Source: Vibrio cidicii (lineage in GTDB: Bacteria; Pseudomonadota; Gammaproteobacteria; Enterobacterales; Vibrionaceae). From it: 64,000 nt of DNA. The stretch covers positions 868,001-932,000 of the forward strand of contig NZ_CP046804.1 of assembly GCF_009763805.1 (NCBI RefSeq). The letters run 5' to 3'. The notes under the pieces are model-generated. The model saw nothing but the letters and a program-made list of their open reading frames with translations, did not search any database and was not told the origin of the DNA. A program made the translations under genes and the position numbers. Each line of letters starts with the position of its first letter. Position 1 is the first letter of the stretch. This document shows, piece after piece, positions 7,355 to 62,387 of this stretch.

Positions 7355-7714
7355 CTAGTTATCGTTAGTGTCGTCTTCAAGCACTTCGATCACTTCAGCG
7401 CTGGAAAGTTCGTGTCCCATGAGAAAAATCGCCAACATCGCATCGGCTTTGGTTTTGGTGTCGCTGGCCTCGGCTAAAATCTGTTCGAAACGATGGCGGA
7501 TCATGGCGATTTCATGTTCAACAAAGCCGCGTCCTTCCTCTTCACCTTGCAGATCATCGGGCGCGTTATCAAATTCAAGAAACAGCAAATCGCCGTCTAA
7601 GCGAGTGTTCACCAGCCTTTCGGGTAGCCATTCCTCTCCCATCACAAGGTCAGGATCGCAATCATCGGGTAATGAGATGAGGATGTTTTTAAGTTCGGAA
7701 GCTTTCACATTCAA
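7355..7714 (-). CDS. Hypothetical acidic protein, 119 residues
   Basis: Not recognised. The product is strongly acidic, without membrane segment or signal peptide, and ends in a run of acidic residues (EVLEDDTNDN). It is the first gene of a probable operon with the PhoD-like phosphatase, whose TTG start is 21 bp further on. The reading frame is clean and the protein looks like a folded helical domain, so it is likely real. Confidence 0.6.
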   Translation of the reverse strand: MNVKASELKNILISLPDDCDPDLVMGEEWLPERLVNTRLDGDLLFLEFDNAPDDLQGEEEGRGFVEHEIAMIRHRFEQILAEASDTKTKADAMLAIFLMGHELSSAEVIEVLEDDTNDN

Positions 7715-9278: not shown

Positions 9279-9866
9279 CTAAGCGCTCAGCGCAGCCAAG
9301 TGCTGCGTTGCTGAAGCGATGCCTTTGCTGGCAAAGTCGTCACCCATGTTGAGCGCTTCTGCGTAGACAAATTCAACCTCAGTGATACCGATAAAACCCA
9401 ATACGGTGCGCAGATATGGTGTGACGTTATCGCTGGCGGCGTCTTTGTGGATCCCGCCGCGTGTGGTGATCACAATTGCTTTTTTGCCTTCAATCAGACC
9501 TTGTACGCCCGCTTCGGTGTATTTGAACGTCACACCAGCGCGCGCAATCAGATCAATCCAGTTTTTCAACTGAGTCGGTACCGTGAAGTTGTACATTGGG
9601 GCCGTGATAACCAGCGTATCTGCCGCTTTCACTTCGGCAATTAGCGTGTCTGAAAGCGCAACAATCGCTTGTTGCTCCACGCTCAACTCGCCGCTGGCAC
9701 GCAGTGCTGTCGCCACTTGGAAGTCCAATACAGGCAGAGGTTGCTGCGCTAAGTCACGCACCGTAATTTCTTGTTGGTCGATATTTTTGACCAATTCATC
9801 GACCAGTTTATTGGATTGAGAGTAGTCGCCAAGAATGCTGGATTTAAGTACGAGAAGACGAGACAT
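9279..9866 (-). CDS. azoR: FMN-dependent NADH-azoreductase
   Basis: A 195-residue flavodoxin-like quinone/azo reductase of the AzoR family. It reduces azo bonds and quinones with NADH through FMN by a ping-pong mechanism and protects against electrophilic quinones. Visible motifs: [14 protein letters not shown] (FMN phosphate loop, residues 4-17) and the flavin-facing [17 protein letters not shown] near residue 95. The start at 9866 ([10 protein letters not shown]) is chosen because AGGA lies 7 nt upstream and the family begins here; an upstream in-frame Met at 9914 would add residues not found in the family. Single-gene unit. Confidence 0.93.
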
Positions 9867-32940: not shown

Positions 32941-34829
32941 GTGCGCCGAGCATGGCGTTGATCTAGGAGGTGAAAGTCCTCTACGGGCTCAGTCGAGCGA
33001 GAACCGTTAGCCTATGCAAGGGTGTTCACCGTGAGGTGAAACCTGAAGGAAGCAAACGGCAAAACTTGGTTGTGACGAACAGAAATCTGATAGTAGGCCT
33101 GTACAACTTGGGTAACCTAGCAATAGATAGAATAGCCCAATGCCTCGACGGGAAGTGTGTATAGGTAAATCAGGCATGACCAAGGGAAAGAGCAACGTCT
33201 TACCTCGGGAGATCTCATTGCCTGTCTCAGATGAGACTAGCACAACAGTGATGTTGTGTGATGGGTAATGAGAAGTCAGCAGAAGGCATAGTACTTTGAG
33301 GAAGTACAACTCAAAGGAAGGCCAGAACTGAATATATCAAGAAGCAGTCACTAGACACTCAATCATGTGGAGTCATAGCAAGATGAAAATCATCTCTACG
33401 TCCCAATGGGCGATACCGCAAGTAAAGCTCATGGTCACGAAGAATGACAAACATGATCGGCGTAGAAAGGAGGACGAGTCTTGGTGACCCCCACTCCGCT
33501 GATGGAACAAATCAGCTCCTCAGCGAATTTGAACCATGCCCTTCGACGCGTGAAGAAGAACAAGGGGTGCGCAGGTGTCGACAGACTCGACATCGCAGCG
33601 ACCATCTCTAAACTTCGACAAGCTTCAAACGGGCAAGCGCTCCGCCAGAGTCTTCTGGACGGAAGCTACCAAGCTCAACCTGTTCTGGGTGTAGAAATCC
33701 CTAAAACGACTGGTGGCGTCAGGCAATTAGGCATCCCCACGGTACTGGATAGGATAGTCCAACAGGCGATCACATCAGTACTGTCAGACATCTATGAGCC
33801 GAAGTTCTCCAACAGTAGTTATGGGTTCAGGCCAAACCGCAGTGCGCATCATGCGCTTGCGGCAGCAAGCCGCTATATCAGAGAAGGGCGGGGTTATGTA
33901 GTGGATATCGATCTAGCCAAATACTTCGACACGGTGAACCATGATAGGCTGATGCACAGATTATCTAAGGACATCAGTGATAAACGAGTATTAAAGCTCA
34001 TCAGGTCCTATCTACAGGCAGGCTTAATGCGAGATGGGTTAGTAGAGCGAAGACAACGAGGAACACCACAGGGTGGTCCATTATCTCCGTTACTCTCTAA
34101 TATCGTATTAGATGAACTGGACAAAGAGTTAGCGCGAAGAGGGCATAAGTTCTGTCGATATGCAGATGACTGCCAAATCTACGTTCGTAGTGAGGAAGCC
34201 GCCCATCGAGTCAAAGAGTCGATAACGGAGTTCTTGGAGCAGAAGCTAAAGCTCACGGTAAACCGTGAGAAAAGTGCAGCGACAAGAGTGACGGAGCGAG
34301 CCTACCTAAGCCATAGCTTCAAGATAGACGGAACCCTTCTGATATCAAAATCGGCACAAGCTCAAATGAAGAAGCGAGTGCGGAAAATAACGAAGCGAAA
34401 TCGAGGTCGAGAGTTATCGGTAATCATCACCGAGTTAACCCAATACCTACGAGGTTGGCAGCACTACTTCAAGCTCGCCATAGGTCAAAGTGCGATGCAG
34501 CGCTTGGACGAATGGATACGGCGTCGGTTGAGATGTTACCGCCTGAAACAGCGCAAACGCAGATACAGCATAGCGACATGGTTACAACGCCAAGGTGTAA
34601 CAGAGCGAAATGCGTGGAAACTGGCGATGTCTGATAAAGGGTGGTGGCGCTTAGCACTCTCGCCCCAGTTGAATCACGCCATGCCAATCAAATGGTTCAA
34701 GGAGAGGGGGCTTTACTCATTGAGAGATGGGTATGAGTCACTAAAGGTATATTCGGAACCGCCGTATGCGACCCACGCTTGTACGGTGGTGTGAGAGGGC
34801 GGAGGCCGTGAGGCCTCCTCCTACTCGAT
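32941..34829 (+). mobile_element. Group IIC intron
   Basis: A complete-looking mobile group II ribozyme of about 1.9 kb. The 5' end is GTGCG (consensus GUGYG), directly after a terminator hairpin, which is the known target type of class C introns. The 3' part shows domain V as a hairpin with CCGCCGTA / TACGGTGG arms (34758-34794), whose CGC matches the class C catalytic triad, then a domain VI hairpin GGAGGCC-GTGA-GGCCTCC and the end CTACTCGAT. AAGCAAA at 33050-33056 is a perfect 7-nt complement of TTTGCTT, the last 7 nt of the 5' exon, so these are the likely EBS1-IBS1 pair. The exact 3' boundary is inferred. Confidence 0.85.
33481..34794 (+). CDS. ltrA: Group II intron reverse transcriptase/maturase
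   Basis: A 437-residue intron-encoded protein that splices the intron RNA and copies it into DNA at the target. Reverse-transcriptase blocks: KKNKGCAGVDRLD, QLGIPTVLDRIVQQAI, SYGFRPNRSAHHAL, VVDIDLAKYFDTVNH (catalytic Asp), RGTPQGGPLSPLLSNI and FCRYADDCQIY (YADD). An X/maturase domain follows (ELTQYLRGWQHYF). There is no HNH endonuclease, as usual for class C. The first codon is TTG or, one codon later, GTG, after AAAGGAGGA. The 3' end of the frame runs into domain V, so the last about 12 residues are coded by catalytic RNA sequence. Confidence 0.94.
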   Translation: MVTPTPLMEQISSSANLNHALRRVKKNKGCAGVDRLDIAATISKLRQASNGQALRQSLLDGSYQAQPVLGVEIPKTTGGVRQLGIPTVLDRIVQQAITSVLSDIYEPKFSNSSYGFRPNRSAHHALAAASRYIREGRGYVVDIDLAKYFDTVNHDRLMHRLSKDISDKRVLKLIRSYLQAGLMRDGLVERRQRGTPQGGPLSPLLSNIVLDELDKELARRGHKFCRYADDCQIYVRSEEAAHRVKESITEFLEQKLKLTVNREKSAATRVTERAYLSHSFKIDGTLLISKSAQAQMKKRVRKITKRNRGRELSVIITELTQYLRGWQHYFKLAIGQSAMQRLDEWIRRRLRCYRLKQRKRRYSIATWLQRQGVTERNAWKLAMSDKGWWRLALSPQLNHAMPIKWFKERGLYSLRDGYESLKVYSEPPYATHACTVV

Positions 34830-48124: not shown

Positions 48125-50513
48125 ATGAAATTCAGCGAATCATGGCTTCGTGAGTGGGTAAATCCTGCGATTACCACTGACGAACTTACTCATCAAATTA
48201 CCATGGCTGGCCTAGAGGTCGACGATGTTCTGCCTGTGGCTGGCGAGTTTAACGGGGTTAAAGTTGGCCACGTTGTAGAATGTGGTCAGCACCCAGATGC
48301 CGACAAACTACGTGTAACGAAAGTAGACGTAGGTGAAGCAGAGCTGCTTGATATCGTCTGTGGCGCGGCCAACTGTCGCCAAGGGCTGAAAGTGGCCGTG
48401 GCAACCGTCGGTGCCACTTTGCCTGGTGATTTCAAAATCAAAAAAGCCAAACTGCGTGGCCAGCCTTCACACGGCATGCTTTGCTCGTTTACCGAGCTAG
48501 GTATCGATGTGGAATCAAACGGCATCATGGAACTGGCACCAGATGCGCCAGTGGGTATGGATTTCCGTGATTTCCTTGCCCTGAACGACGTGACGGTGGA
48601 CGTGGATCTAACGTCTAACCGTGCCGACTGTTTCAGCATCCGTGGTATGGCGCGCGAAGTGGGCGTACTTAACCGCGCTGACGTCACTGAACCTTCGGTA
48701 GAAGCGGTGGCGGTTTCGATTGAAGACAAAGTGTCTATCGACGTAAAAGCACCGGCGGCGTGTCCACGTTACCTTGGTCGTGTGGTGAAGAACGTAAACG
48801 TTCAAGCGCAAACGCCACTGTGGATGCAAGAAAAGCTGCGTCGTTGCGGCATCCGCTCTATCGATCCTGTGGTGGACATCACTAACTACATCTTGCTTGA
48901 GCAAGGCCAGCCGATGCATGCGTTTGATCTGGCGAAGATCGAAGGCGGCATCGTGGTGCGCATGGCAGAGCAGGGCGAGAAGCTGACTCTGCTTGACGGC
49001 AGCGAAGCAGAACTCAACGCAGATACTCTTGTTGTGGCAGACCACAACAAAGCGCTGGCAATTGCTGGGATCTTTGGGGGCGAGCACTCAGGCGTTAACA
49101 CAGAAACCAAAGATGTATTGCTTGAATGTGCCTTCTTTGCACCAGACCACATTCGTGGCCGTGCGCGTAGCTATGGCTTGCACACCGATTCTTCAATGCG
49201 CTTTGAACGCGGTGTCGATTACGCACTGCAAGTGAGCGCAATGGAGCGTGCGACCGCGCTGCTGGTGGAAATCTGTGGTGGTGAAGTTGCGCCCGTTGTG
49301 GCGGTAGAATCACAAGCTGATTTACCTAAGCCAAACAAAGTGGCACTGCGCCGCACGAAGCTGGATAACCTTCTAGGCCATCACATTGCCGATAGCGATG
49401 TGGTTGAAATCTTAGAGCGTCTTGGTATGGCAGTCGAAACCACAGCGGAAGGCTGGGTTGCGGTAGCGCCAACATGGCGTTTCGATATTGCAATCGAGCA
49501 AGATTTGGTGGAAGAAGTGGGCCGTATCTACGGTTACGACAACATTCCAAACCAAAACCCAACCGCCGCGCTTAAGATGCACGATCATCAAGAAGCCAAA
49601 CTGCCACTAAAACGCGTGCGTGATTTGCTGGTTGACCGTGGTTACCACGAAGCGATCACTTACAGCTTTGTTGAACCAGAGCAACAAAAACTGGTTGTTC
49701 CAAGTGTCGATGCACTCATTCTGCCAAACCCAATCTCTGCAGAAATGTCAGCGATGCGCCTTGGTCTGATTCAAGGCTTGCTAAACACTGTGGTTCACAA
49801 CCAAAAACGCCAACAGCCACGCGTTTCGTCTGTTCGAATACGGCCTACGTTTCATCCCATGTGAATCAGCGGAAAATGGCATGCGTCAAGAGCCGATGTT
49901 GGCGGGCGTGATTGCCGGTACTCGCAGCGAAGAGCATTGGAACATCGACACCAACACGGTGGATTTCTTTGATCTTAAAGGCGATGTGGAAGCGATTCTT
50001 GAACTCTCTGCCAACGACAAAGCGTACAGCTTCGTGGCAACCAAGCACCCAGCGCTTCACCCTGGTCAGTCGGCGGCTATCGTGCTCGATGGAAAAGAAA
50101 TCGGTGTGATTGGTACGGTTCACCCAGAACTTGAGCGCAAGTTTGGTCTAAACGGCCGTACTATCGTGTTTGAAATCGAATGGTCTGCGATCAATCGCAA
50201 AGTGATCCCAGAAGCGGTGGCGCTGTCTAAGTTCCCTGCTAACCGTCGTGATATCGCAGTAGTGGTTGATCAAACGGTTGCTTCTGGCGACATCATCAAT
50301 GCGTGTTTGGAAGCGGGCGGTGAGTTCCTGAAAGCGGCAAAACTGTTTGACGTTTATGTCGGTAAAGGCGTGGAAGAAGGCAAGAAGAGCCTCGCTATTG
50401 CCCTGACACTGCAGTCAAACGAACGCACGTTGGAAGATGCCGATATCGCAGGCGCGGTTGATGCAATCGTCGCGCACGTTGCTGAGAAATTTGGCGCGTC
50501 ACTACGCGATTAA
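48125..50513 (+). CDS. pheT: Phenylalanyl-tRNA synthetase beta subunit (one frameshift)
   Basis: 795 residues when corrected, the normal length. It contains the EMAP-II-like tRNA-binding domain ([24 protein letters not shown]), the B3/B4 editing domain, B5, and the C-terminal anticodon-binding FDX-ACB domain ([18 protein letters not shown]). The frame breaks at the TTT of 49824-49826: [11 protein letters not shown] against [22 protein letters not shown]; one extra T explains it. The gene is essential, so this is almost certainly a sequence error. In related genomes ihfA follows pheT; here a terminator and a fimbrial cluster follow. Confidence 0.96.
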
Positions 50514-50555
50514 GCACAAACCAATAAGTTGCTCACAAGCAGAACTTAGCTTTGA

Positions 50556-50583
50556 CAAACGGCCCAAATGGGCCGTTTTTTTA
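50556..50583 (+). terminator. Terminator of pheS-pheT
   Basis: ACGGCCC-AAAT-GGGCCGT stem followed by seven T in all. Confidence 0.92.
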
Positions 50584-51358
50584 TCGATAGAACAGTGCCA
50601 CACCATGCAATAGTTAATACTTCTCGATAATCATTTTGCAATTAAGCGAAAATCGCTGCGCAATTTTGCATCCAATGGGGCGGTGGCCAAAAAAGTACTT
50701 TTTACAGCGATTATTTACTTTGAAAGTTTACTTCTCACACTCTAAGAAAAAAGGAATGTGTGCAAGACAGCTTAAATTTCACTGTATGAAGTCATTAAGC
50801 GAGACCATTTCTTCAAATCAACGCTTGTAAACTCGTAATAGCTTTCTCGTTTAAGTTCTAAGTTAAAGAGATCGCGTTAGAATATCTAGTAATTTTCCTC
50901 ATCCATTTGTCTCAAGGTACGAATAATTGCCTTATTTTGTACAATTCCAGCTCTCACTTCTCGTTATATAGTGATTTTTTATCATTGATAGAGAGAATTT
51001 TCATTCCCATGCATGCAAGCGATAAGATTTAGTAGAACAACTTGGGTATCTCTGATTTTTTCCGCTGTTTTGCATCTTCTTTGCCGCTTTTTCTGCATTC
51101 CATTTTATTCCATTTTCACGTAAGACTTTGTTTTTAAATGGTATTTTGTATTAATATTTAGGATTTTTACTTGCGGGTTCAGTTTGATGATAATTCACCT
51201 CGTTGATTTGAGCTCGCAAGCCAAATCACAAAAAATTAAATCGAGCTGACGACTAAACTGCCTAGATAAAATAAAAGGCAACAGTTTAGGAAAATGAAAT
51301 GTCGACCCGTAAAATATGAAATACTTACATACAAACTGAAATAAATAGGAAAAGTAAA
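50584..51358. other. 775-bp AT-rich leader region of the fimbrial operon
   Basis: No gene supported; a 64-codon frame at 50636-50830 has no ribosome site or recognisable product. Near the pilin gene is an inverted repeat CTAAACTG (51253-51260) / CAGTTTAG (51282-51289), with inner CCT/AGG also able to pair, about 70 nt before the ATG: an operator or leader hairpin. The composition is much more AT-rich than the flanking core genes. Confidence 0.5.
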
Positions 51359-51881
51359 ATGAAAAAAACAATTATCGCTTCTGCAATGATGATGCTCTCT
51401 GCTTCTGTATTCGCTGCTGAAGATACAGGCCACGGTGTGGTTAATTTCACTGGCGCTATTATTGATGCACCATGTTCAATTGCGCCTGAAAGTATGGACC
51501 AAACTGTAAACATGGGTCTGATCTCTAATGTTTTACTAGAAAAGCAAGGTGAAACACCGGTTCGTCCTTTTAGCATTCAACTTGAGTCTTGCTCTACTGA
51601 AACGGCAAAAGCAGCAACCATTACCTTTAGCGGTAACACAGATGGTACAGATAAAAAGCACTTAGCGCTTTCTGGTAAAGGTAAAGGTGCTGCGATTGCT
51701 CTTGTTAACCAAGATGAATCTGAGATTGAACTTGGCTCAAAAGCCAAAGCGATCTCTCTTGTTGAGGGCGACAACAAACTGCAATTTGGTGCGAAGCTGG
51801 TCAGCAACCTAAAAGATGGTGACTCAGCGACTCCGGGTGAGTTTCACGGCAACCACCAACTTCATCATCAGCTACGAGTAA
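51359..51881 (+). CDS. Type 1-like fimbrial major subunit (frameshift near the end)
   Basis: Chaperone-usher pilin, 173 residues when corrected. The signal peptide (IIASAMMMLSASVFA) is followed by the typical GVVNFTGAIIDAPCSI, with the first disulfide cysteine, and the second in LESCSTET. The corrected C-terminus is GEFTATTNFIISYE, with the pilin penultimate aromatic. In the present sequence the end reads GEFHGNHQLHHQLR because of one extra T in the TTT at 51842-51844. The ribosome site AGGAAAAG is present. As the first gene, before an attenuator-like hairpin, it should be the most abundant product. Confidence 0.92.
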
Positions 51882-51911
51882 ACGGCGAGTTCGTTTTTCT
51901 TATCGTGGAAA

Positions 51912-51938
51912 TAACGCGCAGGGATGCGCGTTTCTTTT
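51912..51938 (+). terminator. Attenuator hairpin between pilin and usher
   Basis: AACGCGC-AGGGAT-GCGCGTT stem followed by TCTTTT, 30 nt after the pilin stop and 30 nt before the usher. Partial termination here would give more pilin than usher. Confidence 0.8.
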
Positions 51939-51968
51939 AGCTAAAGTTTGACTTGGTGAAAAAAACTC

Positions 51969-54452
51969 ATGAATAAAGCACTGCTGTCTTACACCATTTC
52001 TTTTATTGTGATCAGTTGGGCGAAAACTGCTCATTCGAGCGATATTGAGTTCAATACTGATCTACTGGATATCAAAGAGAAAGAAAGCATTGATGCGGGG
52101 GCATTCAAACAAGCTGGGTATATCGTTCCAGGCGAATACACTATGCAGCTGGTGGTGAATAATAACCCAATTGGTGAGCGTAAAGTGCGCTTTTATGAGC
52201 AAGAAACAAACAGCTCACAACTCTGTTTGAACGCCAGTTTGGCCGACGAGTTGGGTTTAAAAACGCATGAACAGGAACGTTTATTGACAGAGCCTGCGCT
52301 GACGAGTTTGCAAGGAGAGACCTGTTACGATCCTGCGGTACTGGAAGGCATGCTTATTAAAGCGGATCTTGGTAAGGACACGCTGAGTATCTCAGTTCCA
52401 CAAGCTTATCGAGATTATGTCAGCGAATATTGGGATCCGCCGTCACGTTGGAATGAAGGGGTGAACGGAGCACTGCTTGACTATAACCTCAACCTTCGTG
52501 AAAGCCATACACAGCGCGGTGATAGCACTAGCCTAAGTGCTTATGGTGTTGCCGGTGCCAACATAGAGGCGTGGCGACTAAGAGCTCATTGGCAAAGCCG
52601 TTACGAGCATAGACAAGACAAAGATGGCCAAGATCAGTCGCAAAGTGATTTTGAAGTTAACCGCGTTTACGCCTACCGTGCTTTGCCGGAATTACGCGCG
52701 AAATTAACCTTGGGCGAGCAAGATCTGGGCAATTCCGTCTTTGATGGCTTCCAGTTTACTGGTGCATCGCTGAATAGCGATGACAGAATGCTACCGCCAA
52801 ACTTACGTGGTTATGCGCCTGAAGTGGTCGGCATTGCTAAAACCAATGCCAAGGTAGTGATCAGTCAACAAGGTCGAGTTTTGTACGAAACCCAGGTCGC
52901 CTCAGGGCCATTTCGTATTCAAGACATCAGTAGCGCCGTGAGTGGTACGCTGGATGTCCGTGTGGAAGAACAAGATGGCTCGGTACAAACCTTTCAGGTC
53001 AACACCGCCAACATCCCGTATCTTTCACGCCCAGGTTCAGTTCGCTACAAGTTTAATGGCGGCAAAATCAATACCGCAACTCATGAAATGGATGGCCCGG
53101 CGTTCGCCAGTGCCGAGTTTTCTTGGGGGGTGAGTAATGGTTGGTCGCTACTGGGTGGCGCACTGCTCAGTGATGGCTACGATGCTTTGTCGATTGGTGT
53201 CGGTCGAGACTTGCTGCAATTTGGTGCCGTTTCCTTTGATGTTACGGAGTCTTATGCGCGTCTGGATGAAGGCAGCAAAATGGGCAGTTCATACCGAATC
53301 AACTACTCGAAGAGTTTTGAAGAGTATGAAAGCCAAGTTGCGTTTGCCGGATACCGCTTCTCGGATCGTGATTTCATGAACATGAACGACTACTTGGCGG
53401 CACAAAAGGTCGGTGAGCCTTATCGCGGCGGCTCTAAAGAAGTGTACAGCGTAGTACTCAGTAAGCAGTTTAAAGAGGCTAGCTTGGGCGCTTATCTTGA
53501 CTATACGCATCAATCTTATTGGTCACAGGAAGACAGTGACAGGATCAGCCTTTCTCTGTCACACAGTTTTGATATTAAAGACTGGCGCGGGCTATCCGCT
53601 TCACTGAATGCTTACCATAACAAACAAAGCAACCTGACTGACAATGGACTCTATTTTAGCCTTTCAGTGCCTTTCGGCGGTAGCAAACATGTCAGTTACA
53701 ATGTATCGAGTAATGCAGGTAAAACCACCAATAGTATGAGCTATTACGATCGCATTGATGAACGTAACAGCTACTCGGTCACGGCTTCAACGTCGCCTAG
53801 CGGCGAAAGTGCCAGTGGCTTCTATACTCATACAGGTGACAAAGCCACGGTGATGGCCAACGTTAGCCATATGTCGGGGAATTCAACTTCCCTTGGGCTT
53901 TCCTTAAACGGTGGCATTACCGCGACAGGCGAGGGCGCTGCGCTGCATCGCGTCGGAATGATGGGCGGTAGCCGGATCATGATCGATACCGATGGTGCGA
54001 AAGATGTACCTGTGCATGCAGGTGGTCTGGTGACCTACAGCGATAAGCATGGTAAGGCCGTGGTTGCGGATGTTTCGAGTTATCACCGTCAACGCACCAG
54101 CATTGATGTGGATAAATTAGGTGAAGAAGCTGAACCTATGGGCACACCCGTCTCGATGGGCACCCTAACGGAAGGGGCGATTGGCTACCGTCACTTTGAC
54201 ATGCTCAGCGGCAGCAAACGCATGGTTGAACTGGTGAAAGCCGATGGTAAAGCCATTCCGTTTGCGACTGAAGTGTTTAATGAGAAAGGGCAACCCCTTG
54301 GTATGGTTGGTGAAGATGGTATGGCGTACTTAGCCGGCTTACATGAAGGCGGCATCATCGAAGCGCGTTTGGGTAACAACAAACAGTGCCATATTCAATT
54401 GCCAGCACCGTTACCGAGTGCAGAAACCTTGGCAAAACTAGCATGCCTGTAA
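51969..54452 (+). CDS. Fimbrial usher
   Basis: An 827-residue outer-membrane usher of the FimD/PapC family. The order is: signal peptide, N-terminal chaperone-binding domain (IEFNTDLLDIKEKESIDAGAFKQAGYIVPGEY in pattern), 24-strand barrel, plug domain (LRGYAPEVVGIAKTNAKVVISQQGRVLYETQVASGPF in pattern), and C-terminal domains ending with a cysteine pair (CHIQLPAPLPSAETLAKLACL-like). It exports and polymerises pilin-chaperone complexes. The reading frame is intact. Confidence 0.94.
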   Translation: MNKALLSYTISFIVISWAKTAHSSDIEFNTDLLDIKEKESIDAGAFKQAGYIVPGEYTMQLVVNNNPIGERKVRFYEQETNSSQLCLNASLADELGLKTHEQERLLTEPALTSLQGETCYDPAVLEGMLIKADLGKDTLSISVPQAYRDYVSEYWDPPSRWNEGVNGALLDYNLNLRESHTQRGDSTSLSAYGVAGANIEAWRLRAHWQSRYEHRQDKDGQDQSQSDFEVNRVYAYRALPELRAKLTLGEQDLGNSVFDGFQFTGASLNSDDRMLPPNLRGYAPEVVGIAKTNAKVVISQQGRVLYETQVASGPFRIQDISSAVSGTLDVRVEEQDGSVQTFQVNTANIPYLSRPGSVRYKFNGGKINTATHEMDGPAFASAEFSWGVSNGWSLLGGALLSDGYDALSIGVGRDLLQFGAVSFDVTESYARLDEGSKMGSSYRINYSKSFEEYESQVAFAGYRFSDRDFMNMNDYLAAQKVGEPYRGGSKEVYSVVLSKQFKEASLGAYLDYTHQSYWSQEDSDRISLSLSHSFDIKDWRGLSASLNAYHNKQSNLTDNGLYFSLSVPFGGSKHVSYNVSSNAGKTTNSMSYYDRIDERNSYSVTASTSPSGESASGFYTHTGDKATVMANVSHMSGNSTSLGLSLNGGITATGEGAALHRVGMMGGSRIMIDTDGAKDVPVHAGGLVTYSDKHGKAVVADVSSYHRQRTSIDVDKLGEEAEPMGTPVSMGTLTEGAIGYRHFDMLSGSKRMVELVKADGKAIPFATEVFNEKGQPLGMVGEDGMAYLAGLHEGGIIEARLGNNKQCHIQLPAPLPSAETLAKLACL

Positions 54453-54502
54453 GGCGTGCTAGGTTGCCGATGACTGTTTAAACCAGATTGAGATAAACCG
54501 AT

Positions 54503-55247
54503 ATGATCAATAAACTTCTATGTAGTGTTTCACTTTTACTGACTTTGCTTGCAGGTCAGGCACAGGCGGCGGTCTCGTTAGACAGAAACCCGGGTGATTT
54601 ACCCGGGGGAAGCCAAATCCATGAGCTTAACTATTCGCAACAACAACAAAACCTTGCCTTATCTCGCTCAAGCTTGGCTTGAAGACAGTGAAGGCAACAA
54701 AATCAACAGCCCTTTTACCGTGTTACCGCCAGTGCAACGTTTAGAGCCCGGCGCGGAAAGCTTAATTAAAATTCAAGCATTGCCGATGTTTAAGCAACTA
54801 CCTCAAGATAGAGAAAGCTTGTTCTACTTTAGCCTGCGAGAAGTGCCACCACGCAGTGATAAGCCGAACACGCTGCAGTTGGCTCTGCAAACGCGCATTA
54901 AGTTCTTTTACCGCCCAGCGAGCCTCTTGATCGAGCCCGGCAGCAACAAAGCTCCGTGGCAGGAGAAATTAACACTGCAGCAAGTGGCGGGAAAATATCA
55001 GCTGAACAATCCCACCCCTTATTATGTGACGATTGTGGCCGCAGCAACGAGTGTAAAAAATGAAGGCATTGAGGGATTTGAAGCAGTCATGATTGCGCCA
55101 AACAGCAGTGTTGAGCTCAACGTAGCGACTGCCAAACTCGGCGCAAATCCAACCTTTACTTATGTCGATGACTTTGGCGGGCGCAGAACCATCAGCTATC
55201 AGTGTGAAAACAGTTGTCGTTTCGTGGCAGAAAAAGAGGCCAAGTGA
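54503..55247 (+). CDS. Fimbrial chaperone (one frameshift)
   Basis: PapD/FimC-type periplasmic chaperone, 247 residues when corrected. Signal peptide LLCSVSLLLTLLAGQAQA; the corrected sequence reads AVSLDRTRVIYPGEAKSMSLTIRN, the standard start with the basic cleft residue. The subunit-binding strand is PNTLQLALQTRIKFFYRP. In this sequence one extra A in the AAA at 54586-54588 shifts the frame. It lies 50 nt after the usher, in the same operon. Confidence 0.92.
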
Positions 55248-55257
55248 GGAAGTAAAC

Positions 55258-55833
55258 ATGATGTGCAGTTCACATGAGGCGGCGCAGGCTGCCAACCGGG
55301 GCAAAAGATGGCGCAAAAGCTGGGTCGCCGCGCTGCCACTGTTGCCACTCTGGCTACCTTTTTACGTCGTGGCGGGCAGCCAAGAACTGCTGCTGACCAT
55401 TACCGCCGAGGTGGTGGGTCAGCCATGCTCACTGCGTCCGGGGGATGAAATCATTCCTGTCGATTTTGGCAATATTAACAATAAAGAACTGTTACGCGAT
55501 GGCAGAACCCCAAGTAGGTCGTTTCAGTTGCATCTTGATGAGTGCGAGCCCTCTATCGCAGACAGTGTCAGCGTCACGTTTTCCGGGGTAGCCAGTGAAG
55601 AGAGCGCGCTATTGGCACTCTCTGCTAACAGTCAGGCAAAAGGCATTGCGATAGGGCTAGAGCAAGGTGGCCAAGCGTTACCGATTAACAAGCCAAGCCG
55701 AGCTTTAACGATAACGCAGGGCAGTAATGTACTTGATTTTGCCGCTTATGTGCAGCTATTGCCTTCAGCACAAACCGGGGTGACGCCGGGGAACTTTAAT
55801 GCCACCGCCAATTTTACGCTGGATTATGACTAA
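55258..55833 (+). CDS. Minor fimbrial subunit
   Basis: A 191-residue pilin with a long basic signal region (RGKRWRKSWVAALPLLPLWLPFYVVAG) and the pilin pattern TITAEVVGQPCSLRPG, LHLDECEPS and the end GNFNATANFTLDYD. It resembles the major subunit but is shorter at the end and more divergent; likely adaptor or tip subunit. The stop codon lies inside the start of the reverse transcriptase gene (8-nt overlap). Confidence 0.88.
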   Translation: MMCSSHEAAQAANRGKRWRKSWVAALPLLPLWLPFYVVAGSQELLLTITAEVVGQPCSLRPGDEIIPVDFGNINNKELLRDGRTPSRSFQLHLDECEPSIADSVSVTFSGVASEESALLALSANSQAKGIAIGLEQGGQALPINKPSRALTITQGSNVLDFAAYVQLLPSAQTGVTPGNFNATANFTLDYD

Positions 55834-56785
55834 CCCCTATCCCTTGATGCATTTGGAGCAGGCTTGGCAACTGGCGTTCCAATGGGTGTGCAAACGCCGA
55901 CGCCATTACCCAGCTAACGCGGATATATGGCATTTACGTTTTCACTGGCCGAACCATTCGCAAAAACTGTTAAGTCGTGTTCTGGCCGGCGATTACCGAT
56001 TAAGTGCCATGAAGGTGATAGGGCAGCATGCCTTATGGTCCGCTCAAGATGCATTAGTGCTTAAATGGGTCGCATTGCAATGCGCGCCATGGCTTCCTAT
56101 ACATCCACGTTGTGAGCATGGTTTAGGAATGGGGGTGACAGCGTCCAGAACTCGTCTAGAGCGGTTTTTAAATGAGGCCAAAGGCAGTTCCCCATTTGTG
56201 ATGCGTACCGATATTCGTGGTTATTATCGGCATATCAATAAAAATCAGGTACTAGAACGGGTAGTGGCTTCGCTGCCATCGCCGATTTGGCGAGAGTTGA
56301 TTCGGCAATACCTCTATTACACGGTGGAAGATGGCGGGGAGTTTTACACACCCGAATCTGGCATTGGGCGGGGTTGTGCTTTGAGCCCACTGATCGGGGC
56401 CAGTTTGCTTTACGCCATAGACAGCGATTTTGCACAGCGCCCCGATCTCTATTACGCCCGCTATATGGATGATTTTATTATTCTAGCCCGTAGCCGTTGG
56501 CGGCTTCGACGGGCCATTGCCACCTTACGCAGCCATTTGGCCGAAGGCGGCTTTTCACTTCACCCAGACAAAACCCAGATAGGTAAACTCACCAAAGGGT
56601 TCGATTGGCTGGGTGGTTGGTATAACGAGCAGGGAAGAGTGGGCATTGCGCTGCGCGCCCTGCACCATTACCGTACCCGATCTCTGCGGCTTTATGAGCA
56701 AGCTCGTCGGCTAGGATATTCCCATCAGGAGTGCCTAGTGCGAGTGCAGAATTATCGGGTACGGTGGAGAAGATGTTTTATATGA
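55826..56785 (+). CDS. Reverse transcriptase embedded in the fimbrial operon
   Basis: A 319-residue free-standing RNA-dependent DNA polymerase. Catalytic residues: D129 in RTDIRGYY and the YMDD pair D215-D216 in YARYMDDFIIL. GRGCALSP (181-188) has the SP ending of group II/retron-like enzymes, not the SQ of diversity-generating retroelements. HPDKT at 246-250 and GFDWLGGWY at 258-266 follow. No endonuclease, maturase or partner domain is seen. ATG 55826 overlaps the minor pilin stop by 8 nt and its TGA overlaps the next gene's ATG by 4 nt (ATGA), so it is read with the pilus genes. The family subgroup cannot be named; it is not an intron remnant as no domain V or VI was found around it. Function unknown. 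Confidence 0.9.
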   Translation: MTNPYPLMHLEQAWQLAFQWVCKRRRHYPANADIWHLRFHWPNHSQKLLSRVLAGDYRLSAMKVIGQHALWSAQDALVLKWVALQCAPWLPIHPRCEHGLGMGVTASRTRLERFLNEAKGSSPFVMRTDIRGYYRHINKNQVLERVVASLPSPIWRELIRQYLYYTVEDGGEFYTPESGIGRGCALSPLIGASLLYAIDSDFAQRPDLYYARYMDDFIILARSRWRLRRAIATLRSHLAEGGFSLHPDKTQIGKLTKGFDWLGGWYNEQGRVGIALRALHHYRTRSLRLYEQARRLGYSHQECLVRVQNYRVRWRRCFI

Positions 56786-57662
56786 TAGGAATCTCTAACA
56801 CATTCCATATACAATCTCGGAACATGTACGGGACTTGCGTGAAGTTTCTAGCTGGTAACAGCAAAAAGTTATCTCGTACCGTTATGATACTAGCTGGTAT
56901 AATCGTTGGAGGTCTCCAGGAAACCTCCGCTGCTCCATACACGGTCTATAAAACTGATGAAACACACTACAAAATACAATTCGATGTTAACTACCCTGGG
57001 TTCTACGAGGAGTGGGGCACAGGCTCGGCGGAGAATCTAGGTTCTGCTATTGAAGTGACATACTACTACTTGGCAGGTCACAAACGCTTGGGTACCACCG
57101 GCCAACAATGCGTTCAAGACAAAATGTATCCTCGTCAGGTGTATACGGACGTGGACCACGAAGACCACGTGCGCGCGATCCGGGGGTGTTGGAAAAGGTA
57201 AACTCGTGCGTATTTGACGTCGAGGTTATAAACAGTAGTGAACCTGGGGACATACGATGGAGTGGGTTACTAATCAGGGTTACCACGGAAGAAAACAGCG
57301 GACAACGAGTCAACATACGTTTTATGGAAGAGATGTCGCTGGAACCTGAACCTAACTCGTGCTCTGTTTCGCTCGACCCTATGGATTTTGGGATAATACC
57401 TCCTAACTCGACACCGTCGCACTCGGCCGATCTACTCATATCTTGCTCGCGGGACGCTTCTATTACCGTGACCACCAACGGAGGTCTACCGTTCAACGAT
57501 CAGGCTTCTGGTACCGTTATCGAATTTACTGATCCACCGGAGTTCGTACTCAGTTCCTGTTCCAAGTTTTGTATTGTACCTATAGAGGGGCGTATGAAAA
57601 AGACTCCTAACCGTGCTGGAACGTATAAATGGTTCGTTCCTGTTGTAGTGGAGTATCTATAG
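56782..57662 (+). CDS. Putative fimbrial tip subunit or adhesin (one frameshift)
   Basis: About 293 residues when corrected. A long N-region leads to a signal-like segment (LSRTVMILAGIIVGGLQETSAAP). The second half has a pilin-like domain: CSVSLDPMDFGIIPPNS, ADLLISCSRDASITVTTNGGLPF and the end GTYKWFVPVVVEYL, with paired cysteines. The first half (APYTVYKTDETHYKIQFDV on) is not recognised and may be the binding domain. The frame breaks in the G run at 57182-57186; one missing G joins HVRAIRG to VLEKVNSCVFDV. Codon choice (many ATA, CCT, TCG) differs from the neighbouring genes, which suggests separate origin. The reading across the break is inferred. Confidence 0.65.
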
Positions 57663-57753
57663 GTTACGTCCTAAACCCGACTCGTGAAGTGCCTACTCGC
57701 CTCCGTCGTCGTATGCTGGTTCTTTCCTTTTCTTCGGCTGGATGGCTTCCGTG

Positions 57754-57819
57754 GTGGGTGTAACCCACTTTTGGTCACCAGTGAACGGATACCCGCCTGA
57801 ATGCTTCCGGCGGGCTTTT
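57754..57819 (+). terminator. Two consecutive hairpins ending the fimbrial operon
   Basis: First GTGGGT-GTA-ACCCAC-TTTT at 57754-57772, then CCCGCC with inner GAA/TTC and GGCGGG followed by CTTTT at 57792-57819. Both have T-runs; tandem terminators about 90 and 130 nt after the last subunit gene. Confidence 0.75.
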
Positions 57820-58509
57820 CCGTCTTAGAATACTAAGAACTATGTGCTTGGGCCTCCCTCACCCTCCAGCGTATGCTTAAACCCGTAGCTGGGAGCGGGC
57901 AACTAATGGTGATGGACTTGCTAGACTATTCGCTTTTACCATATGGGCCTGCCGGGTGTTATATTTATCCTCGGGTGGCCTCATATGGTCGAAAATACTC
58001 TATGAGTTTTACTACAGGATCTCCTCAATCCCTGATGTGATATCCGTGATGATTGCGGTTCTCAGCATGATCCGGTCCAGTACTGAAAGGTCTCCCTTCG
58101 GTTGGGATCCTCCGTCTTAATCTGTCGTCCTTCTCTCAGCCTGTTCAGTATTATCGTTACTGTGCTGGTATACTGGAAACCGGAGTTAACGAATTTACTC
58201 GCTGTCGACGGGGGTCTCATTATACCTCTGGAGTGAGGATGGGTTAATCTTCCGACTTATTGGTAGTACTAAATGTCTAAATTCAGCTAAACGATGGTGT
58301 TTGTACCTAACTAGTCGTCGAGCTAAAACCATGTTTTAGAACGGTTACAACTCCAATTCCCTTCACTTGATATTCCATATGAATGTGGATGCGATAGACA
58401 TCCGCCTTCAGGGGTAAGGCAAACCGGCGACCTATCAGCCAAAGGCTTCTCCCACTTTCTTTATCTCTCTTTTTCACCTCTGGCCCCTGAACGACAAAGT
58501 GGCTATCCC
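57820..58509. other. Non-coding tract after the fimbrial operon
   Basis: About 690 bp with stops in all frames at short intervals, no ribosome site and no gene recognised. The composition is unlike the core genes (mixed, many CCTCC/TCGTC runs). No copy of the reverse transcriptase or tip-subunit sequence was spotted by eye. Its right part leads into the decayed copy of the small secreted gene. It could be decayed DNA or hold an unrecognised RNA. Confidence 0.5.
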
Positions 58510-58737
58510 TTCTCTCTTTTCATGGTCCGCCTTATCTCATTTTTTGGTGCACCTGGTCACGTTATCAAACTGTGAACGATTCATCACCCCACCAGTGCGG
58601 TTAGCACTCAAGCCTCTGCCATGGCGATCGGTTCTGCCACTGCCATCAGCTTGGGGATAAGTAAGGGGTAAAGCTAGCGGTGAAAGGCCCAGCTCCTAAG
58701 ATCCTGTAATATGTACCGTCCACCCGCTACTACGTGC
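58510..58737 (+). pseudogene. Decayed copy of the small secreted-protein gene at 58986
   Basis: Aligns with about 59000-59227 of the intact gene: CTGGTCACG in the signal region, then a 53-nt block differing at one base (58594-58646), then about 70% similarity to CCGCTACTACG. It has frame breaks and stops (for example TAAGGGGTAA) and no start codon. A duplicate that has lost function. Confidence 0.75.
58594..58646 (+). repeat. 53-nt near-identical direct repeat, copy 1
   Basis: Begins AGTGCGGTTAGCAC and ends GCCACTGCCAT. It differs at one position (T/C) from 59088-59140, though sequence on both sides is only about 60-70% similar. Confidence 0.85.
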
Positions 58738-58749
58738 CTTTCTTTACTA

Positions 58750-58900
58750 GGCGGCTGGCTCTGAACGAGACCGCGCAATTTGTTTCAATCGCGCTTTGTA
58801 GCAAAAGAAAGATATATTCTCAATGTGCTGATTTTTATAATTATTCCGAATTATTCTCCGCATGACATTCCTCGTTATCGTGATGGATTATGGTTGTGCC
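58750..58900 (+). repeat. Leader repeat, copy A (before the intact gene)
   Basis: Resembles 60533-60660: both contain GCTGG-TCTG, CAATCG-GCTTT-TAGC, AAAGAAAGAT-TATTCTCAA and a CCGAAT-TTC-C-GCATG segment in the same order. Each copy lies about 90-110 nt before a member of the small secreted-protein family, so it is an old duplicated promoter or leader. Confidence 0.7.
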
Positions 58901-58985
58901 TAAAGGGTTTAGGCTAACGGAGGATTAGTCTGTCCTTGGCTTCTCTCCCTACCATTAACTCTCATTGTAATTACAGGAACCTATA

Positions 58986-59417
58986 ATGAAAAAGATGCAA
59001 TTCACCTCTTTAGTGGCGTGTACCGCTTTGGCATTGTTTGGCGCAGCTGGTCACGCTCACGCTACTACGAGCGAATTTTCGCCTGTTAGTGCGGTTAGCA
59101 CCCAAGCCTCTGCCATGGCGATCGGTTCTGCCACTGCCATTCAGATTGCGGATAAGCAAGGGGTAAAGCTTGCAGTGAAGGCCAATGCCCTGAAGCAGCT
59201 GTATGAAACACTGTCTATCCGCTACTACGATCAAAACGGTGTACTTCTCGCACAAGACGAATATGGCTATGGTACGCACGATATTGATCGATTGCTCAAT
59301 GTTGAAGCGATCAAAACCTTTTCACAACCGATTAAAGTGATTCTCGTGACTATTCAAGACGAAAGTGGGGTTGCACTAGAGAGTAAAGAGGCAGAGTTAA
59401 CCAATATCGGTGTGTAG
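58986..59417 (+). CDS. Small secreted protein (DUF3316-like?)
   Basis: A 143-residue protein with a signal peptide (LVACTALALFGAAGHAHA, cleavage near residue 27). The mature part of about 115 residues is a beta-rich domain with VKANALKQLYETLSIRYYDQNGVLL and IKVILVTIQDESGVALESKEAELTN. Length and pattern suggest the Vibrio DUF3316 group, but this assignment is from memory and weak. The ribosome site is CAGGAACC. It is the only intact member of three local copies and has a strong terminator. Likely periplasmic; role unknown. Confidence 0.7.
   Translation: MKKMQFTSLVACTALALFGAAGHAHATTSEFSPVSAVSTQASAMAIGSATAIQIADKQGVKLAVKANALKQLYETLSIRYYDQNGVLLAQDEYGYGTHDIDRLLNVEAIKTFSQPIKVILVTIQDESGVALESKEAELTNIGV
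59088..59140 (+). repeat. 53-nt near-identical direct repeat, copy 2
   Basis: Inside the intact secreted-protein gene, coding SAVSTQASAMAIGSATAI. Partner of 58594-58646. Confidence 0.85.
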
Positions 59418-59443
59418 TTTTTTAGCGCATTGTTAACTGGTTT

Positions 59444-59473
59444 AAGCGCCCACATATAACGGGCGCTTTTTTA
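59444..59473 (+). terminator. Terminator of the small secreted-protein gene
   Basis: AAGCGCCC / GGGCGCTT stem followed by TTTT. Confidence 0.9.
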
Positions 59474-60058
59474 TGCCCGCCATGTGGCCTTTTGCGGTTA
59501 AGTTGAGCCTGCCGGTGGGATTCTTCGGTTACTTATGAACGGTGTTGCTCTGAGACTTACAACAAGTGAAAAAGGAGCCCAACAAGCCGCTGGGATTAAG
59601 TCTGACAGATTTCGCTACTGTTACTTGCAAGCAGATACTCTGAGCGCACAACTATTGTTACGTTTCTCGGCGATGCTTACCTAGGGCTTCGCTTCCCTTG
59701 ACTATCCGCTGCATGAACCTTGGTTGCGACTTCATTGGTTCCATCATGCTAATGAATTCGTTTATTTCTATCATCATTATCTATTATTCCGCTTAATGTA
59801 AATATTTGTTTTTATGGAGATTATTTGTCAATCTTTGGTATTTTTACATTCTCATTCGCTTCTATAACAATGGCGCTTGGTTGAGGGTGTTTGCACTGGT
59901 CGAATTTTCTTGTGTGTCTAGTGCACGAGGAAAGGGCTTTGACTCTTAGCTACACGGACTTTGTCTTATCCAACTGCTAAAGCGTATCGATCGAATTTGA
60001 CCTCGCTTTTTTTCCGTTGAGAACTCAATCAGCATTTTCACTATTGTGGAGTACCAAG
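59474..60058. other. 585-bp intergenic region
   Basis: Nothing recognised except the ribosome site of the receiver-like gene (GTGGAG at 60046-60051). AT-rich in its right half. Confidence 0.4.
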
Positions 60059-60463
60059 ATGAATATTTTAGTTGTGAGTGAATACCCTATTATTCGGGAG
60101 CTCCTCCGTTCTGCTCTTAGACCGCTCAGTCATATCACCCATATCCAGTTATCTGGTGGGAATGATCTCAACGTTATTAAACAAAAAGTGGATACGGGCA
60201 GTCATGATCTAGTGATTTATGATTTGGATTCAGTCAAAAAGGATACCGCAAACGTCATTGCTTCCATGCTGGATGCGATTAACGATAAGCAGTTGGTCAA
60301 GTATGGTTTGTCCTCATTGATTGTCATGTCTAACGAGGCTCAAATTGGCCATTTTCACAGCGTGCTCGATTTTTGTCAGCACTGTGTGATAACCAAACCT
60401 TTTACATTCAAGGATGTTCAGCAGGTTGTAAAAAATATTGGTTTTTTCCCGAACCTCAACTAA
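60059..60463 (+). CDS. Stand-alone receiver-like (CheY-fold) protein
   Basis: A 134-residue protein with a response-regulator receiver fold: NILVVSEYPIIRELLRSAL at the start, HDLVIYDLDS with the candidate phospho-accepting Asp, SLIVMSNEA and the conserved Lys in VITKPFTFKDV. The acidic pair after strand 1 is reduced (SEY), so phosphorylation may be weak or absent. No output domain. ATG 60059 is chosen because GGAG lies 8 nt upstream; an in-frame alternative codon at 60017 adds an unlikely N-terminus. No kinase gene is in the window. Confidence 0.75.
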   Translation: MNILVVSEYPIIRELLRSALRPLSHITHIQLSGGNDLNVIKQKVDTGSHDLVIYDLDSVKKDTANVIASMLDAINDKQLVKYGLSSLIVMSNEAQIGHFHSVLDFCQHCVITKPFTFKDVQQVVKNIGFFPNLN

Positions 60464-60769
60464 TAAAAGCGGAGCTAACCCCGGGCCAAAGTGATATCCC
60501 CCCTGGCTAGGTTGCGTCCCGTTCTGCCATATACGGCTGGATCTGTTCGCCACTCGGCCTTTTTGTGCCAATCGTGCTTTTTAGCGAAAGAAAGATTTAT
60601 TCTCAACGTACAGATTTTGAATCATGCCGAATGTTCCCTGCATGGCATACTGCTTTCTCCCGTTGGACTATAAGATTGCCTCTTGGCGTGGGCTTATTGG
60701 TGTGCAAAATAATCAACCGTTTTAAGTCCTCGATATTTACTTTTATCAAACTCCCAACAAAGGACACTC
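60464..60769. other. 306-bp intergenic region with leader repeat B
   Basis: Holds the leader repeat (60533-60660) and the presumed promoter of the deleted paralog; otherwise nothing recognised. Confidence 0.4.
60533..60660 (+). repeat. Leader repeat, copy B (before the deleted paralog)
   Basis: Partner of 58750-58900; shared order of short blocks as described there. Confidence 0.7.
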
Positions 60770-60910
60770 ATGAAAACAATGCCATTGACGACGCTCAAAG
60801 AGAGCAAAACTTTTGCTCGACCAAGAGAGACGATTCTGCTCAGCGTCAAAGATGAGAGCGGGGCGGTTCTAAGTCGCAAATCGACGGAGATAAATAACAT
60901 CCATATGTAA
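60770..60910 (+). pseudogene. Paralog of the small secreted protein with in-frame internal deletion
   Basis: A 46-residue frame. The first nine residues, MKTMPLTTL, match MKKMQFTSL of the intact paralog; the rest (SKTFARPRETILLSVKDESGAVL on) matches its C-terminus (IKTFSQPIKVILVTIQDESGVAL on). About 97 codons including the signal peptide core are missing, but the frame is kept. It still has an AAAGGA ribosome site and a strong terminator. Either a remnant or a short cytoplasmic derivative. Confidence 0.7.
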
Positions 60911-60936
60911 TCTGTTTTGCTAATTTAATCGTTTAT

Positions 60937-60972
60937 AAAGCGCCAAGTTTGTGCAAACTTGGCGCTTTTTTA
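60937..60972 (+). terminator. Terminator after the deleted paralog
   Basis: 15-bp perfect stem AAAGCGCCAAGTTTG / CAAACTTGGCGCTTT followed by TTT. Confidence 0.92.
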
Positions 60973-61212
60973 CATCTATTAAAAGTCGGCCATGAAAAAA
61001 GGGGGAGGGCTTGCCAGCGGTCAGGCAAAAACAAAACCAACATCGCTGTCGGGGCCAAGCGTTATGGCTGCTAATGTCCGTTAAGGGGGTATCGAAGCGA
61101 TGCAGCCAAAAACTGAACCAGTGTGAGTGAACGTTACCTGCTGAGGCCAGTGCCTCAACTGGCTGATGGAATGCTGGTTCGTGCCGAAAGCAAGAAAGCA
61201 AAAGTAAACAGT

Positions 61213-61244
61213 AAAAAAAGACCTCAGACATTGCATCTGAGGTC
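61213..61244 (-). terminator. Terminator of the OmpA-family gene
   Basis: GACCTCAGA / TCTGAGGTC stem with a 7-nt loop; seven A on the plus strand give seven T on the minus strand. The gene stop is at 61316. The remaining sequence at 60973-61212 shows nothing recognised. Confidence 0.88.
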
Positions 61245-61315
61245 GATCGCTGAGGTTACTAAGATCCATTAATAGGTGTAGCTGAGGATACGCAACCAAA
61301 GTCTAAAACAAATTG

Positions 61316-62387
61316 TTACCAAGGTGAGGCGAGTTCTTCGACTTCGTGGTAACCAGTGATTTTAATTTCTACGTGGCGATCTGGTGCTAAACACGCAATT
61401 TGCTCGCTCTTGTTTTTGGTGTTGTAACATGCATCACCTTCGCGCAGCTTAGCTTTGCTTTGTGCTTGAACACGAATTTGACCTTCTGGTAGGCCTAAGT
61501 AGGCGAGGTAACTTGCTACCGCTTCTGCACGCGCTTTCGCCACGCGATCTTTAACCGTATCAGAGCCCAAGCTGTCGGAGTAACCAATCACTATGGCTTC
61601 CACCTCTTTTTTGGCGCTGATTTCCAGTAGTTGTTGGTTCAACTTGTCTAACGCTTGCAAAGCATCACGATCTAGCGTGGTTTGGTTTAAGCCGAAGGGA
61701 ATGTCTTCACTCAGTTCAAACGGTTTGTCCACCACTATCGTTGCAGGCGCTTCTTGCACTTGAGTAAAGGCGATTTCTTCGACCTGATCGTTGGCAAGTT
61801 CGAGAGTATCGTTCTTGCTTGAACGGAATGGGTGGTAAACCAGCTCAAGCATGGCGATGTTTTCATTCGGTTCGAAGCGCGTCTGATAGCGTTTCGCTTC
61901 GGATATCGGCCACATCTCGGATATAACGCCAACGAGCTTGTACGTCGAGCTGGTCGTTAATTTGGTAAGACAAACCCGCCCCAAGCATAGGTGATACTTT
62001 ACGGTCTTTTTCTCCCAGACCTTCGGTGGTTGACCAATAAGCGCCAGCTTCGGCAGTCAGTGACAGATCGCCAATCAGGGGAACATGGCCATTGAGGCTA
62101 AGCGTTGCTCCTTGGTTTTGAAATGGCAGTTCATCGCTTTTTCCCTTACCGACGTAGAGGTAACCTGCTTCTGCAGAGAGATAGTCGTTGAAATCATACC
62201 CCAGAAATAGAGTGCCTCCAGCAGCATCATCAACTGATGACTGTACACCGTCAATTTTGCTTAGACCGTGAATATGGCCCACGCCGACCCCCGCGCCTAA
62301 ATAAATATCCGACTCATCGGCGAATACGGAGGTTGAGGTTGCCATAAGAATCATAGAGCTGATTAAAGAAATACGGAATTTTTTCAT
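61316..62387 (-). CDS. OmpA-family outer membrane protein (one frameshift)
   Basis: About 356 residues when corrected. Signal peptide ILMATSTSVFA; an eight-stranded barrel domain (DIYLGAGVGVGHIHG, GGTLFLGYDFNDYLSAEAGYLY, SPMLGAGLSYQINDQLDVQARWRYI); then the C-terminal OmpA domain with FGLNQTTLDRDALQALDKL and IVIGYSDSLGSDTVKDRVAKARAEAVASYL, which binds peptidoglycan. The frame breaks at the GG of 61902-61903 (plus strand): DIRSETLSD against DIEAKRYQTRFEPNENI; one extra base. It lies between the small-protein cluster and a ToxR-like regulator that could control it. Confidence 0.9.

Follow-up and report, generated by a model that had tools for sequence, protein, structure and literature searches.

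Why is a free-standing reverse transcriptase (RT) encoded within a chaperone-usher pilus operon? The question is raised by a stretch of 64,000 nucleotides (nt) of Vibrio cidicii (contig NZ_CP046804.1, positions 868,001 to 932,000 of the forward strand; hereafter the window), in which an RT gene is placed between the genes of a minor pilin and a putative tip adhesin. A sequence-only reading of this stretch had suggested variation of the tip subunit, surface regulation or phage defence as possible roles. In relatives of the locus on plasmids and in genomes (designated here by locus numbers, L), the DNA that follows the RT gene on its 3' side varies far more than the sequences flanking it, and a sharp border marks the 3' end of the RT gene. 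Where this zone can be aligned it is rich in transversions, and synonymous and replacement sites have changed alike. We infer that the RT causes the hypervariable zone, and that UG4 RTs, the class to which the enzyme of the window belongs, are likely error-prone, in-place diversifiers of the receptor-binding part of the neighbouring surface protein.

The RT of the window is a member of the UG4 class, far above other RT classes. Its open reading frame (ORF) of 319 amino acids (aa) has no internal stop and matches the PADLOC model RT_UG4 with 404.9 bits (E=4.7e-122), compared to 81.6 for the second model. The Pfam family RVT_1 is matched with E=1.8e-18, while the nearest NCBIfam model, a group II intron RT, remains far under its cut-off (79.6 vs 300). 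In an alignment of 20 UG4 proteins, residues M214, D215, D216, L186, S187 and P188 are invariant and D129 is nearly so, and the AlphaFold2 model of the window RT has a mean pLDDT of 91.6. The enzyme is intact, as the sequence-only reading had stated, and the profile search that it had proposed assigns it to UG4. RT_UG4 is also matched by 20/20 proteins of set A2 (E up to 1e-5) and by 10/10 plasmid RTs tested (E up to 1e-30). The residues that follow Y-x-x-R-W in enterobacterial relatives (the RT tail) are missing from the window RT. The genome of the window itself (two contigs of 3.43 and 1.32 Mb) contains 16 RVT_1 matches (including L001-L008), seven of them in frames of the same 442 aa; these seven are probably group II introns, one being located inside the window at about 33697-34314.

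All near-identical sets among the fetched loci were compared, and in two of them the substitutions are confined to the gene behind the RT. The E. albertii plasmids L106 and L114 differ by 12 substitutions in 14.9 kb; every one of them falls between 8079 and 8276, downstream of the RT stop codon at 7966 and within the next gene. Nine of the 12 sites are replacements, six residues are changed without a stop, and three single-base indels all fall outside this patch. Across six goat E. coli plasmids (L104, L115, L116, L123, L124, L125; 8.9-14.9 kb), the only three substituted sites (8200, 8265 and 8273) are again located in the gene after the RT; site 8265 carries T, A or G, four haplotypes are present across the set, and the remaining sequence differs by short indels and alignment-end gaps only. 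Tip-subunit variation, one of the three proposed roles, is strongly supported in relatives by these sets together with the gradient and the border described below.

The E. marmotae plasmids L209 and L208 reveal how this divergence is distributed. Their adhesin-like gene upstream of the RT has two replacement and no synonymous changes in 308 codons, and the RT part compared (231 codons) has a synonymous divergence (dS) of 0.032. The gene after the RT reaches a dS of 0.648 and a replacement divergence (dN) of 0.264. Since the synonymous rate also rises behind the RT, selection alone is insufficient to account for the zone. Counted from the RT stop in bins of 150 nt, the differences number 40, 56, 52, 29, 23, 16, 5, 12 and 5; identity per 100 nt past the RT falls to 58, 61, 66 and 55%, recovers to 74, 86, 88, 85 and 93%, and stands at 100% about 1.4 kb further. 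The divergence fades smoothly over about 1-1.2 kb. The ratio of transitions to transversions (ts:tv) in the zone is 99:139 in this pair and 24:34 in L105/L113, i.e., 0.71, vs 1.1-2.0 in five control comparisons. An extension of the gradient into insertion-sequence DNA behind the adhesin was considered and is not supported, such DNA being 97% identical from +747 in L105/L113. In eight of ten loci the ORF in the zone has the lowest codon score of the scored genes. On the Salmonella plasmid L216, where the partner gene is convergent with the RT, codon choice declines toward the RT, scoring 0.51 at more than 3 kb from the border and -0.29 next to it, with a weaker trend in L217; at convergent loci, the border and the codon scores suggest that mutation takes place as well. 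The same plasmid L216 carries a second inverse autotransporter (1-5709), whose 3' end is faced by a partial match to the UG4 RT.

On the RT side the zone ends abruptly. Fourteen enterobacterial loci give 91 possible pairs, of which 46, not mutually independent, passed a filter that required a single alignment (>78%, >400 nt) spanning the end of the RT. The DNA alignment ends 24-106 nt past the Y-E-x-R-W codons in 45 of these 46 pairs, and at 24-43 nt in 40 of them. A hairpin is located at the border; its 5' arm (TGGGC...) is similar between loci, and its 3' arm differs in sequence yet pairs (e.g., L106, L111, L118). As a universal feature the hairpin was rejected, since the loci in which it stands out are mostly enterobacterial, together with the Aeromonas plasmid L102. 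The same border is observed for convergent invasins and inside RT-adhesin fusions. In the convergent Salmonella pair L216/L217 the RTs are 81.5% identical and similarity ends 9 nt past the motif. In the genome contigs L025 and L026, RT and adhesin are fused in a single ORF of 719 and 703 aa, respectively; their DNA matches at 91.7% over the RT parts and ceases to match 21 nt past the motif. Within this one ORF dS changes from 0.28 before the border to 1.2 or saturation after it, and the proteins past the border are still 17-51% identical by segment.

The association with surface proteins extends beyond the window. That UG4 is linked to fimbriae is already published: the passages on UG4 in PMC8934634 report co-occurrence with fimbrial domains at 66%, and they give no function, nor a hot zone, a border, convergent invasins or eCIS partners. 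In the part of PMC4244168 concerned, UG4 is said to be restricted to Proteobacteria. A tblastn search with the window RT yields 50 plasmid records at 1e-15, mostly enterobacterial, and no match in phage records at 1e-10; among 80 loci kept from viral contigs, the best is 35% identical. UG4 is rare, being found in 3/100 near relatives (E 1e-40), 9/369 genomes of the class (1e-40) and 6/394 of the order (1e-60), each count including the genome of the window. Of 16 distinct relative loci (near-duplicates left out), 13 have fimbrial genes upstream on the same strand, which agrees with the earlier suggestion that the RT is built into the pilus operon; L109 faces a fimbrial operon, and L110 and L121 are without fimbrial genes in the stretch compared. 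The pilus link on which that suggestion had been staked holds in part: many UG4 loci are without pili, but in these the RT is often opposite a surface protein of another kind, so that the idea is broadened and not refuted. By eye, 12 of the 19 best genome loci (L022-L040) have the start or end of a surface or secreted protein at about 350 nt or less from the RT 3' end, or fused to the RT, and one (L036) is uncertain.

The tip adhesins are oriented in the same way as the RT, and their N-terminal domain is thus nearest to it. Convergent partners, in contrast, have their C-terminal end nearest the RT (L030, L039, L040, L027, L059, L010, L012 and the Salmonella plasmids L216 and L217). Those of L030, L039 and L040 appear PEP-CTERM-like by eye, L059 has an Invasin_D4 domain and matches the invasin structure 1cwv (E=2.4e-4), L216 and L217 are annotated as inverse autotransporters, L027 and L012 match Big_1 and Lcl_C, respectively, under the cut-off, and L010 has no Pfam match. 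The fimbrial adhesin domain MrpH_C is found above the cut-off in L024 and L103 and, in L032, under the cut-off. That Pfam scan covered seven further proteins, among which five have no match and the two RT-adhesin fusions match in the RT part alone. A sequence search of PDB with one adhesin gave no match. UG4-related RTs of cyanobacteria (L044, L049; short frames) face genes with an eCIS-core domain. Beside plasmid pilus operons, a gene pair for a phosphoadenosine phosphosulfate reductase and a ParB-like protein recurs (L104 9529-11387, L105 10080-11941, L127 11907-13756). The E. marmotae plasmid L120 (2633-5816) has three hypothetical adhesin-like genes, recognized by eye and perhaps retired copies, between FedE and the RT, besides the one after the RT.

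How could an RT create such a zone? A border fixed at the RT end and a far side that fades are consistent with copies that share a single stop but have many different starts, as expected of cDNA halted by the hairpin. We propose that the RT would copy, with many errors, an RNA that runs from the RT gene past its 3' end and on into the target. At the hairpin, synthesis would halt, giving the fixed border, and the cDNA would replace the resident DNA with variable far ends, giving the gradient. Selection on binding would retain useful variants and, with no preserved template copy, the gene would drift continually. The template may be RNA or, alternatively, nicked or snap-back DNA; the pattern expected of hairpin-stopped cDNA would also arise if error-prone synthesis began at a nick in the hairpin region. 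In L107, an internal part of the RT gene (7450-7612) recurs with 90% identity at 9521-9686, about 1.6 kb behind the RT and in the same orientation. Together with the abutting degraded copies in the window (Table 1), it hints at the copying of nearby sequence into the zone; neither proves reverse transcription.

The main rival is cassette exchange, in which plasmids swap adhesin alleles by homologous recombination that breaks close to the RT, and the RT is a passenger. Tip adhesins are known targets of recombination and selection. The plasmids L105, L106 and L113 are 97-99% alike in RT DNA without full-length DNA similarity in the gene behind, and L209/L208 is a mosaic: its pilin gene FedE, well upstream of the RT, has a dS of 0.736 and a ts:tv of 60:75, and 100-nt identities in that block fall to 46-67%. 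Because this FedE block has diverged as well, ordinary exchange of diverged segments also occurs in these operons and can look alike. A patch such as that of L106/L114 could likewise be obtained by import of a diverged allele. However, exchange does not readily explain a three-allele site and four haplotypes in stretches otherwise free of substitutions, the smooth decay over about 1.2 kb in L209/L208, or the low ts:tv of two zones relative to the controls (FedE being an exception). In addition, the border is unchanged when the target is on the opposite strand or in the same reading frame, and in one plasmid search the L106 zone was found in L106 and L114 only. We hold cassette exchange as the cause of the zone to be unlikely, though it has to be taken seriously. 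Diversifying selection on the adhesin at a normal mutation rate would fit the frequent replacements in L106/L114, but is contradicted by the dS contrast (0.648 vs 0 in the upstream adhesin-like gene and 0.032 in the RT part of L209/L208; 1.2 to saturated in L025/L026) and is, as a sole cause, extremely improbable. Equally improbable is an antiphage DRT-type system residing incidentally in pilus operons. PADLOC places RT_UG4 under DRT, yet beyond this label we see nothing in favour of the phage defence that the sequence-only reading had listed: the ten window ORFs scanned contain no effector-like domain, no known RNA family was found, and the zone and the surface-protein partners would stay unexplained.

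A classical diversity-generating retroelement (DGR) with an overlooked template repeat is a further alternative. BPP-1-type DGRs consist of bRT, Avd and the repeats TR and VR, and DGR RTs carry SQ in RT motif 4. UG4 enzymes have L-S-P instead, invariant in the 20 aligned proteins, in agreement with the earlier remark that the DGR motif is missing. By BLAST, no second copy of the target is present in the window's own genome, and none in the plasmid records of L104, L106, L115, L208 and L209 (at BLAST sensitivity and by one A-tolerant scan); self-BLAST revealed no template repeat. The A-tolerant scores over a whole plasmid of 42.5 kb lie within the shuffle range, and the best C-tolerant score is 19.0 vs up to 16.0 in three shuffles, with a match ending at query base 178. 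Adenine-specific mutagenesis was hinted at by the closest plasmid sets, where 10/15 substituted sites involve A, and was dropped after the per-allele count over all zones (three pairs; A.154, C.133, G.120, T.140) gave no adenine excess. Taken together, we judge a classical DGR very improbable. An Rfam scan of 50500-62000 gave two chance-level matches (E 0.59 and 0.91), neither an intron, and no match to a retron msr-msd RNA, although Rfam may not cover all retrons; within this coverage, the reported lack of a group II ribozyme is borne out, and that of a retron RNA is so tentatively.

In-place diversification by the UG4 RT, which we prefer, also has observations weighing against it. Besides the FedE block and the possible import of alleles, L105/L112 have six substitutions with just one in the adhesin gene, and L107/L117 and L109/L126 show no differences over the stretch compared. 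The codon-score rule is broken by L104 and L120, and the long same-strand targets L047 and L058 have no codon gradient. The hairpin reaches z<-1.5 in only 20 of 44 scored loci (46 submitted), many of them close kin; for L048 and L058, and probably for L027, the motif search had hit a wrong place. The window does not have the hairpin (z=+0.7); L102 does (z=-2.2). Six of the 19 genome loci (L028, L031, L033, L034, L035, L037) have no visible surface protein at the RT 3' end. Finally, the probabilities calculated for the clusters of substitutions are post hoc.

What does the window itself contribute? The features are collected in Table 1. A Pfam scan of ten window ORFs shows that the operon begins with a pilin (Fimbrial), followed by the usher (Usher, PapC_N, PapC_C), the chaperone (PapD_N, PapD_C), a further pilin (Fimbrial) and the RT. 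Both gene overlaps of the sequence-only reading are recovered, as the minor pilin ORF ends 8 nt inside the RT gene and the next gene may start with an ATG at 56782 (4-nt overlap) or, alternatively, at 56773. Its tip-subunit gene does begin at the RT end, but is found as two frames rather than one, neither with a Pfam match at E 0.01; their codon scores relative to the usher are -0.19 and -0.22 bits per codon. The gene read here as pheT (48125-50513) is similarly split into ORFs 48125-49864 and 49881-50513, and this break, with those at the chaperone start and the major-pilin end, suggests indel errors in the assembly. Because of these further frame breaks nearby, the split of the adhesin frame may be a sequencing fault.

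Table 1. Features of the pilus operon and of the DNA behind the RT (positions in the window).
Feature	Position	Strand	Basis and remarks
Major pilin	51359..51940	+	Fimbrial PF00419 E=7.8e-13; 3' end seems frame-broken in assembly (by eye)
Outer-membrane usher	51969..54452	+	Usher E=2.3e-152, PapC_N, PapC_C
Periplasmic chaperone	54594..55247	+	PapD_N E=9.4e-33, PapD_C; frame broken near start, stops in upstream extension
Minor pilin	55258..55833	+	Fimbrial E=3.3e-20 (for 55243-55833); start read from sequence; 8-nt overlap with RT
UG4 RT	55826..56785	+	ORF, profile searches, alignment, AlphaFold2 model
Border, end at 56767 of DNA similarity to L102	56765..56770	+	BLAST against Aeromonas relative L102 (70%, 5.4 kb)
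Putative tip adhesin, piece 1	56773..57201	+	ORF; position behind RT on same strand as in relatives; negative codon score
Putative tip adhesin, piece 2	57108..57662	+	ORF in different frame; codon score computed separately
Stretch without similarity to L102; no ORF of at least 80 aa starts inside; holds degraded copies of DNA further downstream	57663..58980	.	ORF list, BLAST
Degraded copy (68%) of 58856-59229	58361..58734	+	BLAST
Degraded copy (71%) of 60515-60671, abutting the copy at 58361-58734	58733..58891	+	BLAST

The nearest plasmid RT, that of L102, is 76.6% identical in aa, and the operons share 70% DNA identity over 5.4 kb. Similarity is lost 18 nt short of the RT stop codon, and collinear matches resume at 61488-62052. 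At 58986-62387 a downstream gene (by eye) and an OmpA-like region (BLAST) resemble those behind the RT of L102. The island thus seems common to both, except for the zone behind the RT. Given a split adhesin frame and the lack of both hairpin and RT tail, the window copy may be decayed and inactive, or mis-assembled; what it contributes is its anatomy, the loss of similarity to L102 and unfavourable codon use, and we make no claim of activity for it.

Compared to known systems, the window RT shares its class by profile with the UG4 RTs of myRT (PMC8934634) and PADLOC, where the fimbrial link is reported in the passages concerned. With DGRs, the UG4 loci share an RT beside a surface-protein gene with a locally hypervariable coding sequence and a similar fold. 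Because no template repeat was found and adenine specificity is lacking, UG4 is not a classical DGR; it differs further by LSP instead of SQ, by a border at the RT's own 3' end and by targets that may be fused to the RT. The window enzyme differs from the RTs of group II introns and from G2L4 in the lack of a nearby intron RNA family, in its RT-only length of 319 aa and in its genomic setting. The likeness of UG4 to the G2L4 RT makes synthesis from a nick at the hairpin conceivable. Many Escherichia and Salmonella plasmid relatives are annotated with PefC-type ushers and partly with FedE-type pilins, as in the F18/Pef-type plasmid fimbriae (FedE, PefC), but at UG4 loci the RT sits between the pilins and the next gene. 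Judged by titles and the beginnings of abstracts, with most subscription papers outside the coverage, no report of a UG4 mutator is recognisable in the literature.

In summary, in-place diversification by UG4 RTs makes specific predictions, namely a zone, a border and a gradient that all depend on the catalytic site of the RT. More broadly, and at close to even chances, UG4 RTs may represent a separate invention of programmed hypermutation, donor-less and self-templated, that continually rewrites the end of whichever surface protein lies directly behind the RT 3' end irrespective of strand and is nearer in logic to somatic hypermutation than to DGRs. It would act in proteobacteria, and perhaps cyanobacteria, on tip adhesins, invasins, PEP-CTERM and eCIS-core proteins. 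If true, this would provide a function for an RT class known, in the literature covered, by its name and neighbourhood alone, and RT-driven diversification would have arisen with a second, simpler anatomy that has no template repeat. It would also bear on how the pili and invasins of enteric bacteria vary.
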